64,000 bases of DNA from Sphingobacteriaceae bacterium (lineage in GTDB: Bacteria > Bacteroidota > Bacteroidia > B-17B0 > Aurantibacillaceae), in contig CANKBS010000012.1 in the NCBI GenBank assembly GCA_947480015.1, positions 1 to 64,000 of the forward strand, written 5' to 3'. The position numbers were made by a program, and so were the translations under genes. Position 1 is the first letter of the stretch. The number at the start of each line of letters is the position of its first letter. Positions 2,718 through 58,105 of this stretch are shown here, in pieces. The notes below the pieces were generated by a model. The model ran no database searches, was not told where the DNA came from, and saw nothing but the letters and a program-made list of their open reading frames with translations.

Positions 2718-3180
2718 TTTTTTTTATGGTTTTTATATATACGTGACAATCAAATGTTTAATCCTGTTGGCAGGAGCGAAAATCAGCTTTTTATTTATTA
2801 AAAGAGATCGTGAGTACTCTGATTTGATAAACAAAGAAGGCTAATTTTAACAAATTTCTTTTCAAAGGCTGATTATTCCTACCATTTGCTTCGTTATTTT
2901 TGTTGGTATTTTTCGTTTATTTTTTTCATATGCTACAAAGATCATAGCCTAAACCTTTGGTGGTTGTTTTGTTAATTTTTAACAAAAACAGGCTCTATCT
3001 TTTGTTACCAAACCCGGCTTAAGTAAACGAGAATTTACTTTTATGTAGGCTTGTTGTTTTCTCAAAAATAAGTTTTGTTGATTGCGCATAAAAAAGGGGT
3101 TCGTGAATTTAGGCCCGGCATTTTTTAGGCGTTTTTAGGAATAAAAAAATCATGTGCTCACAAATGACTGCTTTATTCAT

Positions 3181-3192
3181 TAAATTTGGAGG
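3181..3192 (+). promoter_or_regulatory. -7-like box and ribosome binding site before mutL
   Basis: TAAATTTG (3181-3188) fits the Bacteroidota -7 consensus TAnnTTTG and overlaps GGAGG (3188-3192) seven to eight bases before the ATG. Either a real Shine-Dalgarno sequence (rare in this phylum) sets the start, or the mRNA is leaderless. Sequence alone cannot separate the two. Confidence 0.4.
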
Positions 3193-3195
3193 TTT

Positions 3196-5025
3196 ATGTC
3201 ATCAAATACCATAGCACTGTTACCCGACCATGTGGCCAATCAAATTGCGGCGGGTGAAGTTGTGCAACGTCCGGCCAGCGTGGTCAAAGAACTTCTTGAA
3301 AACGCTATCGATGCCGGTGCCACGCATATTAAATTAATTTTAAAAGATGCCGGCAAAGCCCTTGTACAGGTTATTGATAATGGAAAAGGCATGAACCCCT
3401 TTGATGCCCGCATGTGTTTTGAACGTCATGCCACTTCTAAAATTAACAGTGCCGACGACCTATTTACTCTTACCACTAAAGGCTTTAGAGGTGAAGCCCT
3501 TGGCAGTATAGCCGCGATTGCTCAGGTTGAATTAAAAACCAAACAGGAGGAAGATTTGGTTGGTCAACAAATTATTATTGAAGGTGGCAAACTCATCGCG
3601 CAAAACGAGTGTCAAACCGCAAGCGGCACTTCCTTTACAGTAAAAAATCTTTTCTTTAATGTGCCGGCCCGTCGTAACTTTTTAAAAAGCGATCAGGTTG
3701 AACAAAAACACATTCTCGATGAAATTGAAAGAGTGGCTATTCCGCACAACGATGTCCATTTTGTGTTGATTAGTAATGGCAATGAAATCTTAAACCTCCC
3801 TCCGGGAAGCCTTATGCAGCGTATTAAATCACTGCTTGGCACCTACATGCAAAAGGAGTTGGTTCAAATAAACGAAGACACTTCTTTTGTCAGAATTTCG
3901 GGTTATGTGAGTTTGCCGGATGCCGCTATTAAAACTAAAAAAGATCAGTATTTTTTTGTGAATAATCGTTTTGTGCGCAATCCGTTTTTGAATCATGCCA
4001 TTTATGAAGCTTACAAAGAGCTTATCGGTTTTCAGTCACACCCGCGTTATTTTATTTTCCTCGATCTCGACCCCAAACACATCGATATAAATATTCATCC
4101 AACCAAGACAGAGGTAAAATTTACCGACGACAAAACGGTTTACATGCTTTTACTCAGCGCCATCAAACGTGCATTGGGCAAGGCCAATGTGTCGGGCTCC
4201 ATTGATTTTGAAACTGAAGTAAATTTTCAATCCGATCCGGCGCAGGCAAATAAAGTTTATCCGCAACCACTCATTTCGTATAACACCAATTATAATCCAT
4301 TTCATTCTACCGCTGCCAACCAGGCGAACAATCCGCTTCAAAAAGCCAACAAACAAAACTGGGAATCGATGTTTGAGGGTTTTAAATCGGATACCGAGGT
4401 GGAAACCGAATCGCCACAGCAAGAACAACAACGCCTTGATGCCATTCGCAAAGAGGCGATCGACTTTCAGGTATTTCAATTACATAATAAATACATCGTT
4501 ACAGCTTACAACCAAAATGTTTTAGTGGTTGATCAACAGCGGGCACACGAACGCATTGTTTACGAGCATTACCTCAATTCAAAAACCGAAAATAAAATCA
4601 GTTCCCAACAATTATTATTTCCCGAACAAATTGAATTAAGTGCTGCAGATTTTTCGCTGGTAAAAGGTTTACTCGATGAATTTAAAAATTTAGGTTTTGA
4701 TCTGGAAATATTTGGTAAAAATAGCATTGTGGTAAACGGTGCCCCCAGTGACATGCAGGACTTTAATGTGGTGCAAACCATTGAAGGTATTGTTGAAACA
4801 TACAAACTCAATACCATTGATGCCAAGGTTGAAAAACACGATAATTTGTGCAGAGCCATTGCAAAAAACATTGGTATTAAATATGGCAAACAGCTTGAAG
4901 TAGAAGAAATGAAATTACTCCTCAATCATTTAATGACCTGTGAAAATCCATTATATACATCTAATGGAAAAACCGTAATGATGGATGTGGAATATAACGA
5001 GATCGAAAAATTCTTTAAAAGATAA
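3196..5025 (+). CDS. mutL: DNA mismatch repair protein MutL
   Basis: MutL is the GHKL ATPase that couples MutS mismatch recognition to downstream repair. The N-terminal ATPase motifs are clear: ELLENAIDAGA (residues 32-42), DNGKGM (61-66), ATSKI (79-83) and GFRGEAL (97-102). A variable Gln-rich linker (about 370-420) leads into the C-terminal dimerisation domain. That domain keeps VDQQRAHERIVYE, a variant of the DQHA(x)2E(x)4E endonuclease motif, but the usual C-terminal HGRP metal-site motif is replaced by YTSNGKTV, so nicking activity is doubtful. The length of 609 aa is normal. It heads an operon with two rhomboid genes; its stop abuts the next ATG. Confidence 0.97.
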   Translation: MSSNTIALLPDHVANQIAAGEVVQRPASVVKELLENAIDAGATHIKLILKDAGKALVQVIDNGKGMNPFDARMCFERHATSKINSADDLFTLTTKGFRGEALGSIAAIAQVELKTKQEEDLVGQQIIIEGGKLIAQNECQTASGTSFTVKNLFFNVPARRNFLKSDQVEQKHILDEIERVAIPHNDVHFVLISNGNEILNLPPGSLMQRIKSLLGTYMQKELVQINEDTSFVRISGYVSLPDAAIKTKKDQYFFVNNRFVRNPFLNHAIYEAYKELIGFQSHPRYFIFLDLDPKHIDINIHPTKTEVKFTDDKTVYMLLLSAIKRALGKANVSGSIDFETEVNFQSDPAQANKVYPQPLISYNTNYNPFHSTAANQANNPLQKANKQNWESMFEGFKSDTEVETESPQQEQQRLDAIRKEAIDFQVFQLHNKYIVTAYNQNVLVVDQQRAHERIVYEHYLNSKTENKISSQQLLFPEQIELSAADFSLVKGLLDEFKNLGFDLEIFGKNSIVVNGAPSDMQDFNVVQTIEGIVETYKLNTIDAKVEKHDNLCRAIAKNIGIKYGKQLEVEEMKLLLNHLMTCENPLYTSNGKTVMMDVEYNEIEKFFKR

Positions 5026-23353: not shown

Positions 23354-24367
23354 TTAGGTAAATACTTTGGTACCTTCGGTGCAATTGGTACAAATATCTA
23401 TTTGATTCCGGCTTTTTAAAACCGATCGTCTGAACTGATCATAAGCCGGCGAAAACCAAATATTTTTAAATGATTCCGATTCGAGATTACCTAATTTGTA
23501 TTTGGCATCCTTATCAAAACAACAGGGTACAATTTTTCCGTCCCAGGTAATCACGCAGCCCTGCCACATGCGCCAGCACTGGTTCAGCAATTTATTTTTA
23601 ATATGGTAATTGCCCGAAGCATCTTTTTTATACCGCGAGTAGTTTTCCAAATCCGGTATAAGCGTGTGCCCGTTTTCAAAATCGTAAATTTGTGCGGTTT
23701 TAATTTTCACCTCATCTACGCCTAATTCTTTGCCTAATTTTTTCACTGCCTCAATCTGCGTTTGATTGGGTTTAAAAACCACAAATTGCCAAACCACATG
23801 AGGCGTTTTGCTTTTTAAGCGTTTTTTTTGTTTCAAAATCTCCTTGGTGCCTTCCAATACCTTATCGAGCTTACCTCCTATGCGGTACTGCTCATAAACT
23901 CCCTGGGTAATACCATCCACCGAAATAATGAGTTTGTCGAGTTTACTCAACACGGTTTGACGGGCATTTTCCTCCGTTAAATAATGTGCATTGGTACTGG
24001 TGATGGTGAAAATTTTATTGGCATGCGCAAAACTTACCATGTTTAAAAAATCGGGATTAAGGTAAGGCTCGCCTTGAAAATAAAAAGTGAGGCTGTGTAA
24101 ATGGCTTTTAAGTTGGCCGATGATGGTTTGAAAGAGTTGTTGTTGTAACATGCCGGTAGGTCGGCTAAATTCGCGTAAACCACTGGGACATTGCGGGCAG
24201 CGTAGGTTACAGCTCGTAGTAGGTTCGATGCTTACAAAAACGGGGAGGCCAAATTGTTTGGGTTCATTCCTGAAACGCGAATAATGAAAGCCAACATAAA
24301 GCTTAATGAAGTTGACGGCTTTTGCCGGACTAAGCTTTTTTAAGATGTTTATATAGTAGTAGATCAA
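23354..24367 (-). CDS. Radical SAM/SPASM domain protein
   Basis: The radical SAM [4Fe-4S] motif is CNLRCPQCP (CxxxCxxC; about residues 53-60). A C-terminal SPASM-type Cys cluster is visible: CWRMWQGCVITWDGKIVPCC, then CTNC near the end, which would bind auxiliary clusters. SPASM enzymes mature peptides or act as anaerobic sulfatase-maturing enzymes; similar Bacteroidota proteins are also annotated with sugar or lipid modification. No peptide substrate gene is visible nearby. The stop lies against that of the upstream acyl-CoA synthetase gene. Substrate unknown. Confidence 0.88.
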   Translation of the reverse strand: MIYYYINILKKLSPAKAVNFIKLYVGFHYSRFRNEPKQFGLPVFVSIEPTTSCNLRCPQCPSGLREFSRPTGMLQQQLFQTIIGQLKSHLHSLTFYFQGEPYLNPDFLNMVSFAHANKIFTITSTNAHYLTEENARQTVLSKLDKLIISVDGITQGVYEQYRIGGKLDKVLEGTKEILKQKKRLKSKTPHVVWQFVVFKPNQTQIEAVKKLGKELGVDEVKIKTAQIYDFENGHTLIPDLENYSRYKKDASGNYHIKNKLLNQCWRMWQGCVITWDGKIVPCCFDKDAKYKLGNLESESFKNIWFSPAYDQFRRSVLKSRNQIDICTNCTEGTKVFT

Positions 24368-41749: not shown

Positions 41750-42099
41750 GTCATGGTTCGACAAGCTCACCATGACACACTCACAATTACAAGCTCACCA
41801 TGACATGTTAGTTAAATGCACTTAGGATGCCCAAGGATGTCATCCTGAGCCTGTCGAAGGATGGCTCTGCCTGTCATGGTTCGATGCTTCGACGGGCTCA
41901 GCACAAACAGCTCACCATGACACACTCACAATTACAAGCTCACCATGACATGTTAGTTAAATGCACTTAGGATGCCCAAGGATGTCATCCTGAGCCTGTC
42001 GAAGGATGGCACTGGCTGTCATGGTTCTATGCTTCCTTATCATGGTTCGACAAGCTCACCATGACTTAGTAGTGGTCATCCTGAGCCTGTCGAAGGATG
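41750..42099. repeat. Palindromic element cluster 1 (core GAGCYTGTCGA)
   Basis: Full copies with stem CATCCT/AGGATG (flanked by GT): 41839-41863, 41984-42008, 42075-42099. Full copies with stem CATGGT/ACCATG in opposite orientation: 41750-41776 and 42040-42065. A longer hybrid lies at 41873-41922 and half-copies at 41789-41804 and 41934-41949. Neighbouring elements face each other, as BIME-type REP pairs do. The last copy contains the stop codon of the GIY-YIG gene. Confidence 0.9.
41766..42035. repeat. Direct 145-bp tandem duplication
   Basis: Bases 41766-41890 recur at 41911-42035 with three mismatches in 125, a period of 145 bp. The unit carries one full CATCCT-type palindrome and two half elements, so the duplication probably occurred by slippage or recombination between copies. 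Confidence 0.9.
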
Positions 42100-42402
42100 G
42101 TCTTCCGAAGAAGGAAACCTTACCTTATAGTTTTTTGATAGTTCAACCAAAGCCTCATAATTCCCTAAAATCAAAGCCTCCTTTTTTTTACGAGACCAAC
42201 CTTTCAATTGTTTTTCCCTGGCAATAGCTGCTAAATTATTTTCAATTATTTCGAAGTATACCAACTCTAAAGGCCTTCGTGAATAAGTATAACAGGTTGG
42301 ATTCAAACCCTCTTCATGTTGGGATAGCCTAGAATTAACATCATTGCTAACACCAATATAATAGCTATCGTCTGAACATTTAAGTATATAAACATAAAGC
42401 AT
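42076..42402 (-). CDS. GIY-YIG nuclease family protein embedded in palindromic repeats
   Basis: A 108-residue protein of the UPF0213-type GIY-YIG fold: YVYILKCSDDSYYIGVSNDV (variant GIY ... YIG), the catalytic Arg in VNSRLSQHEEG, and a conserved AREKQLKGWSR. It is probably a DNA-cleaving or structure-specific nuclease. Its last nine codons (DHPSTGSG and a TGA stop) are encoded by a repeat palindrome (42075-42099). The coding body has no repeat sequence; palindromes lie on both sides (cluster 1 and cluster 2). Whether it acts on these repeats is unknown. Confidence 0.88.
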   Translation of the reverse strand: MLYVYILKCSDDSYYIGVSNDVNSRLSQHEEGLNPTCYTYSRRPLELVYFEIIENNLAAIAREKQLKGWSRKKKEALILGNYEALVELSKNYKVRFPSSEDHPSTGSG

Positions 42403-42486
42403 GATTAAAATTAAATAAAATCATGTATTGCTTTTTTTGTTGTGATTTTTATTCGCGTAGATTTTTTTCACGTAACATTATTGAGT

Positions 42487-42705
42487 CATGGTTCTATGGT
42501 TCGATGGTAGATGCTTCCCTTGTCATGGTTCGACAGGCTCACCATGACCTATTAGTCGTCATCCTGAGCCTGTCGAAGGATGGCTCTGCCTGTCATGGTT
42601 CGACAAGCTCACCATGACAAGCTCACCATGACCTATTAGTCGTCATCCTGAGTAAGTTTAAGCTGAGCTTGGCCGATAGCTATCGGCCGAAGCATCGAAG
42701 GATGG
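42487..42705. repeat. Palindromic element cluster 2 (core GAGCYTGTCGA)
   Basis: Copies with stem CATGGT/ACCATG: 42522-42548 and 42592-42618. Stem CATCCT/AGGATG: 42558-42582 and, interrupted, 42642-42705. Half copies lie near 42487-42505 and 42616-42632. The interrupted copy has about 40 extra bases between its arms, including an 18-bp perfect palindrome (GGCCGATAG, CTATCGGCC). A stretch of 46 bp (42558-42603) is identical to 41839-41884 in cluster 1. Confidence 0.88.
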
Positions 42706-57891: not shown

Positions 57892-58063
57892 GTCATTCTG
57901 AGCCTGTCGAAGAATGGAAAGGAAAGTTCAAATGTTCAAGGAGGTTAGAGGGTTAAAACTAGTTCAAAACATTTCCTTCTCATTTACTCCCATGAAAGTC
58001 CTGAGTGCCGCCCTGAGCTTAGTCTTAGGGTGCCTTATGCATACCCTGAGCTTGTCGAAGGGT
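57892..58063. repeat. Palindromic element cluster 3 (core GAGCYTGTCGA)
   Basis: Copies with different stems: 57892-57916 (CATTCT/AGAATG, loop GAGCCTGTCGA) and 58043-58063 (ACCCT/AGGGT, loop GAGCTTGTCGA). 58011-58030 is a variant (CCCT/AGGG, loop GAGCTTAGTCTT). The three stems differ but each pairs perfectly, so complementarity rather than sequence is conserved. The stretch 57785-58118 holds these and the terminator. Confidence 0.8.
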
Positions 58064-58105
58064 GGTTCAATTTGTGGGTTTGTTATTACATTCATAACGA
58101 ATGAC

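Follow-up and report, generated by a model that had tools for sequence, protein, structure and literature searches.

A stand-alone GIY-YIG nuclease gene between facing tagged hairpins in a Sphingobacteriaceae bacterium: a candidate driver of CGTC-type palindromic repeats

Tagged REPs have been split into two superfamilies, GTAG and CGTC (Di Nocera et al. 2013, PMC3733652). Members of the CGTC superfamily, which includes TGTC and CCTC variants, have stems of 8-9 bp starting with A-T, loops of 4-5 nt and a head-to-head pairing, and they occur in Proteobacteria, Chlorobi, Bacteroidetes, Spirochaetes and Thermotogae; the superfamily apparently lacks a dedicated transposase, and its mode of spread was left open (PMC3733652). 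GIY-YIG nucleases are mentioned neither in that survey nor in a survey of HUH enzymes and REPs (PMC6006769), and we found no paper linking GIY-YIG with REPs, RAYTs or extragenic palindromes in open-licence PubMed Central, a collection with few subscription papers and no preprints.

The repeats described here come from a 64,000-nucleotide stretch of DNA (the window) at the start of contig CANKBS010000012.1 of a Sphingobacteriaceae bacterium. They resemble CGTC REPs in having an unpaired CGTC/TGTC tag at one end and head-to-head pairs and, less strictly, in a stem that often begins with A-T and a short loop, and the two have Bacteroidetes, Spirochaetes and Alphaproteobacteria as common hosts. 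They differ in that two stem positions are usually G.A mismatches, in that their loops are often longer and, relative to the CGTC REPs surveyed in 2013 (PMC3733652), in their association with a dedicated nuclease gene. With REP/REPIN-RAYT systems they share short tagged hairpins, facing pairs, a gene-bearing version with equal flanks and a repeat type that tracks the enzyme. In contrast to those systems, the tag is GTCA or CGGT (GTAG is not among the common tags), and the enzyme is a GIY-YIG nuclease, with a fold other than that of the Y1 HUH enzyme RAYT and without HUH and tyrosine chemistry. The proteins closest to this nuclease in sequence and fold are stand-alone GIY-YIG proteins of the UPF0213/YazA type, whose housekeeping members, where inspected, differ in occupying fixed operons without hairpins. 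Homing endonucleases of the I-TevI type share the nuclease fold and, probably, selfish spread; unlike them, the nuclease studied here has no intron, intein or added DNA-binding domain (by eye, no intron or intein was seen at the gene) and is flanked by its own palindromes.

A family of small tagged hairpins

The initial annotation had described elements that share the core GAGCYTGTCGA, carry complementary arms differing from copy to copy and face their neighbors, and our analysis bears out each part of this description. With at most one mismatch allowed, the core matches 13 times in the window (10 exactly), against a mean of 0.64 and a maximum of 3 in shuffled sequence. Nine of these matches lie within 41750-42705, where their strands alternate (-,+,-,+,-,+,-,+,-; Table 1), two are at 58 kb, and two one-mismatch hits at 23930 and 47991, both within coding genes, are probably due to chance. 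All the quoted arms are present, namely CATCCT/AGGATG, CATGGT/ACCATG, CATTCT/AGAATG (57.9 kb) and ACCCT/AGGGT (58.05 kb). Across the whole genome (3.77 Mb) there are 58 exact copies of TGAGCYTGTCGA and none of its reversed control.

Table 1. Features of the repeat cluster, the 58-kb copies and the tRNA-linked loci. Positions are those of the window unless a locus is named.
Feature	Position	Strand	Basis
Hairpin, CATGGT type	41750..41776	-	core search
Hairpin, CATCCT type	41839..41863	+	core search
Hairpin with variant core GAGCCCGTCGA and TGCT stem, without GTCA tag	41881..41907	-	core search
Hairpin, CATCCT type, partner of the hairpin at 42039..42065	41984..42008	+	core search, pair analysis
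Hairpin, CATGGT type	42039..42065	-	core search, pair analysis
Hairpin, CATCCT type; downstream end of gene-bearing unit, overlapping the 3' end of the gene	42075..42099	+	
Stand-alone GIY-YIG nuclease gene, 108 aa, UPF0213-like	42076..42402	-	Pfam, translation, profile match
Hairpin, CATGGT type; upstream end of gene-bearing unit	42522..42548	-	
Gene-bearing unit (GTCA-tagged hairpin, GIY-YIG gene, facing hairpin ending TGAC), candidate autonomous element	42075..42548	-	
Gene-less facing pair, 61 bp, CATCCT and CATGGT ends, candidate non-autonomous copy	42558..42618	.	
Long-loop or disrupted copy, GTCATCCTGAG ... CGAAGGATGG, enclosing a further hairpin-like stretch	42642..42705	+	by eye
Single hairpin, CATTCT type	57892..57916	+	core search
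Single hairpin, ACCCT type	58040..58064	+	core search
tRNA-linked unit	L281, about 2740-3422		
tRNA-linked unit	L282, about 2789-3472		
Further tRNA-linked clade loci	L116, L118, L127, L149, L153, L155, L158, L159, L165, L169, L171, L174, L175		

Among 52 distinct genome copies, the four stem pairs adjoining the core are 87-100% Watson-Crick. Pair 2 (C-G 36, G-C 10, T-A 1) is formed in 90% of copies against 59% after shuffling, pair 3 (C-G 21, G-C 21, A-T 2, T-A 1) in 87% against 43%, and pair 4 (T-A 40, C-G 5, G-C 1) in 88% against 70%; pairs 2 and 3 vary on both sides, as compensatory change does. Part of this variation reflects two end types, CATCCT and CATGGT, which are paired with each other, and is not free drift. 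GTCA stands before the stem, mostly without a mirror copy on the opposite side. Read as a hairpin, the core would form tandem G.A mismatches, the order up to the loop being T-A, G.A, A.G and G-C, and the invariant part is better described as a tag, (T/C)GTCA, followed by a stem and YGAG...CGAR.

The repeats are a real and widespread family of small DNA hairpins. Rfam holds no family matching the cluster, a literature search on the repeat sequence itself gave unrelated matches only, and no IS terminal repeat explaining the copies was found. Elsewhere in the same genome the core is also arranged in tandem, in short arrays whose periods are 16, 21 and 24 bases (L178 and L180 on contig 21, L015 on contig 11, L001 on contig 2), which indicates that some copies multiplied via tandem duplication and not as facing pairs.

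All five close facing pairs of GTCA-tagged hairpins in the genome, at four separate sites, join a CATCCT end with a CATGGT end. The cores of gene-less pairs are 34-55 bp apart, and those of the gene-bearing unit, which has the same two ends, are 447 bp apart. Given these identical end types, the gene-less 61-mer, which folds with a z of -3.4 as single-stranded DNA, looks like the gene-bearing unit minus its gene.

The GIY-YIG nuclease and its hairpins across genomes

It had been proposed that a transposase or nuclease tied to the repeats be sought. A GIY-YIG gene, overlooked earlier, does lie inside the interval; the expected correlation with copy number, on the other hand, is weak and unspecific. 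Over 87 genomes of the window's own bacterial family, nuclease number and repeat number give a partial rho of 0.21 with genome size controlled (permutation p about 0.03), and the number of Y1 transposase genes correlates with repeat number about as well.

The gene's product matches Pfam PF01541 (E 1.2e-18), and its C-terminus, about EDHPSTGSG, is encoded by the downstream hairpin of the two facing ones that bracket the gene. A profile search with the 108-aa protein placed solved UPF0213 proteins nearest (1zg2, E 1.7e-21) and SLX1 next, and Foldseek ranked them in the same order for its AlphaFold model (mean pLDDT 89.4). In this UPF0213-type domain the catalytic positions are conserved: G17, R25 and E63 never vary across 75 sequences, and Y5 and Y15 rarely do, as would be expected of a GIY-YIG active centre. 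The closest homologues within the genus are those of G015 and G011, which lie on contigs other than those bearing the tat regions of these genomes.

We counted hairpins of the form stem(4 or more)-GAG-N3..34-CGA-stem' in two samples. Sample 1 drew on named genomes, comprised 80 loci in order of similarity to the cluster nuclease, and could favor repeats because the last residues of the query are repeat-encoded; sample 2, which cannot, comprised 60 loci from the 87 family genomes, picked by Pfam score only. Within 400 bp of the GIY-YIG gene hairpin density is 3.46 per kb in sample 1 and 3.31 in sample 2, against a background, more than 1.4 kb from the gene, of 0.175 and 0.069 per kb, so that hairpins are 20 to 48 times denser near stand-alone GIY-YIG genes than elsewhere in the same DNA. 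A hairpin lies within 400 bp in 70 of 80 and 39 of 60 loci, respectively, and hairpins flank both sides of the gene in 51 of 80 and 29 of 60. Eight control motifs of similar composition gave near/far ratios of 0 to 2.7, and in intergenic DNA alone the excess is 7-fold in sample 1 and 39-fold in sample 2; inverted and direct repeats across the gene are also above control positions. Y1 transposase genes of the same 87 genomes, which served as a control for small mobile nucleases, have a hairpin nearby in 3 of 24 cases and on both sides in none. Near housekeeping UPF0213 genes, such as Bacillus subtilis yazA in its operon, the hairpin is absent or a single weak match, and relatives in Methylobacterium and Planktothrix do carry it. 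Such hairpins enclose the nuclease gene not only at this locus but also in dozens of genomes, which belong to many bacterial phyla. On a Planktothrix agardhii plasmid (L275), the neighbors of a GIY-YIG gene with TGTCATTCTGAGTGAAACGAAGAAT hairpins are a gene for an MmeI-type restriction enzyme on one side and the DISARM gene drmA on the other.

Orientation is regular as well. In both samples together, the nearest upstream hairpin is on the plus strand in 69 cases and the minus strand in 26, and for the nearest downstream hairpin the minus strand prevails (62:32), which places the tags outermost. Two homologous loci (L129, L133) are arranged similarly, the upstream stem being of the TGGT type and the downstream stem of the CCCT type. 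In one nuclease clade (L136, L145, L150, L152, L160, L170) the hairpins near the gene are long-armed, and a conserved internal loop, GAGT(G/A)...(C/T)GTATCGA, surrounds an inner stem-loop that differs from copy to copy.

Of 227 GTCA-tagged hairpins near GIY-YIG genes, 211 bear TGTCA (183) or CGTCA (28), with the mirror side untagged, which gives them the one-ended CGTC/TGTC tag of the CGTC superfamily; head-to-head pairs are likewise found, both in the genome and around the gene. A stem and loop of 8+5+8 results only when the two G.A mismatches count as pairs, and the first pair is A-T in 112 of 227. A wider search for perfect hairpins with a [CT]GTC tag gave few matches, and at one locus (L143) fully paired forms of the hairpin flank the GIY-YIG gene on both sides. 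Judged by sequence, the repeats are probable relatives of the CGTC superfamily, an assignment whose stem-and-loop part needs the G.A mismatches to be counted.

The type of hairpin goes with the nuclease. Hairpins of one locus have the same loop class in 95% of pairs against 22% after shuffling. On a tree of 96 nucleases (108 columns, many forks unresolved), loop class changes 27 times against a shuffled mean of 56.6, closing pair 7 times against 25.8, and tag, GTCA or CGGT, once against 7.7, and no shuffle was as low in any of the three. Within the window's own bacterial family alone the figures are 6 against 18.3, 2 against 12.4 and 1 against 4.8; since the coupling holds inside one family, much of the host effect is removed. 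Tag and loop track the nuclease tree and not the host, the loop differing between lineages together with the nuclease, and the clade with CGGT and related tags spans Bacteroidota, Ignavibacteriota, Spirochaetota, Actinomycetota and Chloroflexota. Both the association of nuclease and hairpins and the coupling of their specificities are very well supported.

Mobility and a tRNA-linked sister class

The tat region adjoining the cluster is conserved in about 30 congeners, and none of the 11 congener loci inspected has the repeat cluster beside it, one of them (L264) having a single stray core. Alignment of 13 pairs of related loci revealed no clean empty site, no target duplication and no insertion bounded cleanly by hairpins; that the hairpins move together with the gene is therefore something we infer.

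A second short GIY-YIG gene of the genome (contig 39, L032 1-850) is bracketed by two copies of a second repeat, one whose ends carry CGTCA. This repeat has 11 copies (L032, L249-L259) with ends CGTCATTCAGA...TCTGAGTGACGG, also written CGTCATTCAGACGCCGC...TCTGAGTGACGG; they are often in tandem, and several are near contig ends. The only Y1 transposase gene of the genome (contig 37, L035 1-1150) is found among a third palindromic repeat, of the GCTCC...GGAGC type, as would be expected of an ordinary RAYT-like gene.

In 13 of the 60 family loci a tRNA gene lies within 400 bp of the nuclease gene, usually 36-48 bp before it, and the control flanks of the same sample contain no tRNA gene. With unassigned genes omitted, one change on the tree suffices to set tRNA-type genes apart from hairpin-type ones. 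One complete genome carries a 686-bp tRNA-type unit, 93% identical, at both tRNA-Met and tRNA-Arg, which shows that a stand-alone GIY-YIG unit spread within one genome. The tRNA-linked clade looks like a tRNA-targeting mobile nuclease, and the spread of its unit supports mobility of the nuclease family as a whole.

What moves the repeats

We consider it probable that a small mobile element, with the gene for the stand-alone GIY-YIG nuclease as its sole gene, has these repeats as its ends and as its gene-less remnants, and that this nuclease moves them. By analogy, the system is best read as REP/RAYT-like, driven by a GIY-YIG nuclease in place of an HUH enzyme. The unit would start from the (T/C)GTCA tag and a first hairpin, whose core is YGAG...CGAR, and continue through the nuclease gene to another hairpin that faces the first and ends in TGAC, and gene-less facing pairs, such as the 61-bp one here, would be non-autonomous copies, as REPINs are to RAYTs. 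The nuclease would bind tag, stem and core when these are single-stranded or extruded as a cruciform and would cut at or near the tag, after which the unit might be copied to a new site by host repair or replication. Because cleavage by GIY-YIG enzymes is hydrolytic, joining would have to fall to the host; we know of no GIY-YIG enzyme that joins DNA, which counts against this reading. Support comes from the hairpin excess, the facing orientation, the coupling of tag and loop, the matched ends in five of five pairs, the second GIY-YIG gene between CGTCA-ended repeats and the tat region conserved in congeners that lack the cluster. The reading is weakened by the lack of a clean empty site, the low rho, the equally good Y1 correlation, the 108-column tree and repeat-rich drafts (G001, G019, G029) in which no short GIY-YIG gene was detected, many of the repeats in G019 being at contig ends.

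Movement by the nuclease is the most economical reading, and its main rival, which we regard as unlikely, is that the nuclease is a homing-type parasite that cuts gene-less hairpin pairs and has its gene copied between them, the repeats spreading by other means. A gene between the members of a facing pair, and a specificity tracking the nuclease tree, are equally expected of such a parasite, which would also fit the genomes with many repeats and no detected gene. Against it, no other enzyme turned up in association with the repeats: Y1 genes are not linked to them, and the 2013 survey reported no associated transposase (PMC3733652). The tRNA-linked units of the sister clade, moreover, have spread whole, as units of 686 bp. 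More improbable is that the nuclease is a domesticated host enzyme with the task of resolving or limiting hairpins, and stays beside the repeats because these originated around its gene or control its expression. The SLX1-like fold, the housekeeping UPF0213 genes in fixed operons and the general ability of the GIY-YIG superfamily to cut structured DNA agree with such a role, whereas scattered lineage-specific sites, several genes per genome and a tag specificity that crosses phyla look selfish.

That a Y1 (RAYT) transposase moves the repeats with the nuclease as a passenger is very improbable. Y1 genes are present in 57 of the 87 family genomes and match repeat number as well as the nuclease does, but they lack these hairpins, the only one in this genome is flanked by a different repeat, and the repeats also occur in genomes free of Y1; we rejected Y1 as the driver because none of the 24 Y1 loci has flanking hairpins on both sides. 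Hairpins and nuclease gene both lie between genes, as they would if the hairpins were ordinary intergenic ones, for example terminators, linked to the nuclease by chance or by common intergenic placing. The intergenic-only controls refute this explanation, to which we assign a negligible probability, and orientation and tag track the gene.

We return to the nuclease as the mover of its own repeats. Short palindromic repeats of the TGTC/CGTC type occur in many phyla of bacteria and, according to the survey in which they were defined, apparently have no transposase of their own. A GIY-YIG nuclease is likely the driver of this common class of repeats, previously without a known enzyme. It is an evenly balanced question whether a new class of mobile elements is at hand, in which UPF0213-type GIY-YIG nucleases recognize tagged folded DNA, the (T/C)GTCA/CGGT clade driving the CGTC superfamily across many phyla and the sister clade using the ends of tRNA genes. 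If the nuclease does move the repeats, it would be, to our knowledge, the first GIY-YIG nuclease found to mobilize its own palindromic ends in bacteria. With a specific candidate enzyme, whose tag and loop specificities can be read from its own flanks, the question of how these repeats spread becomes directly testable.
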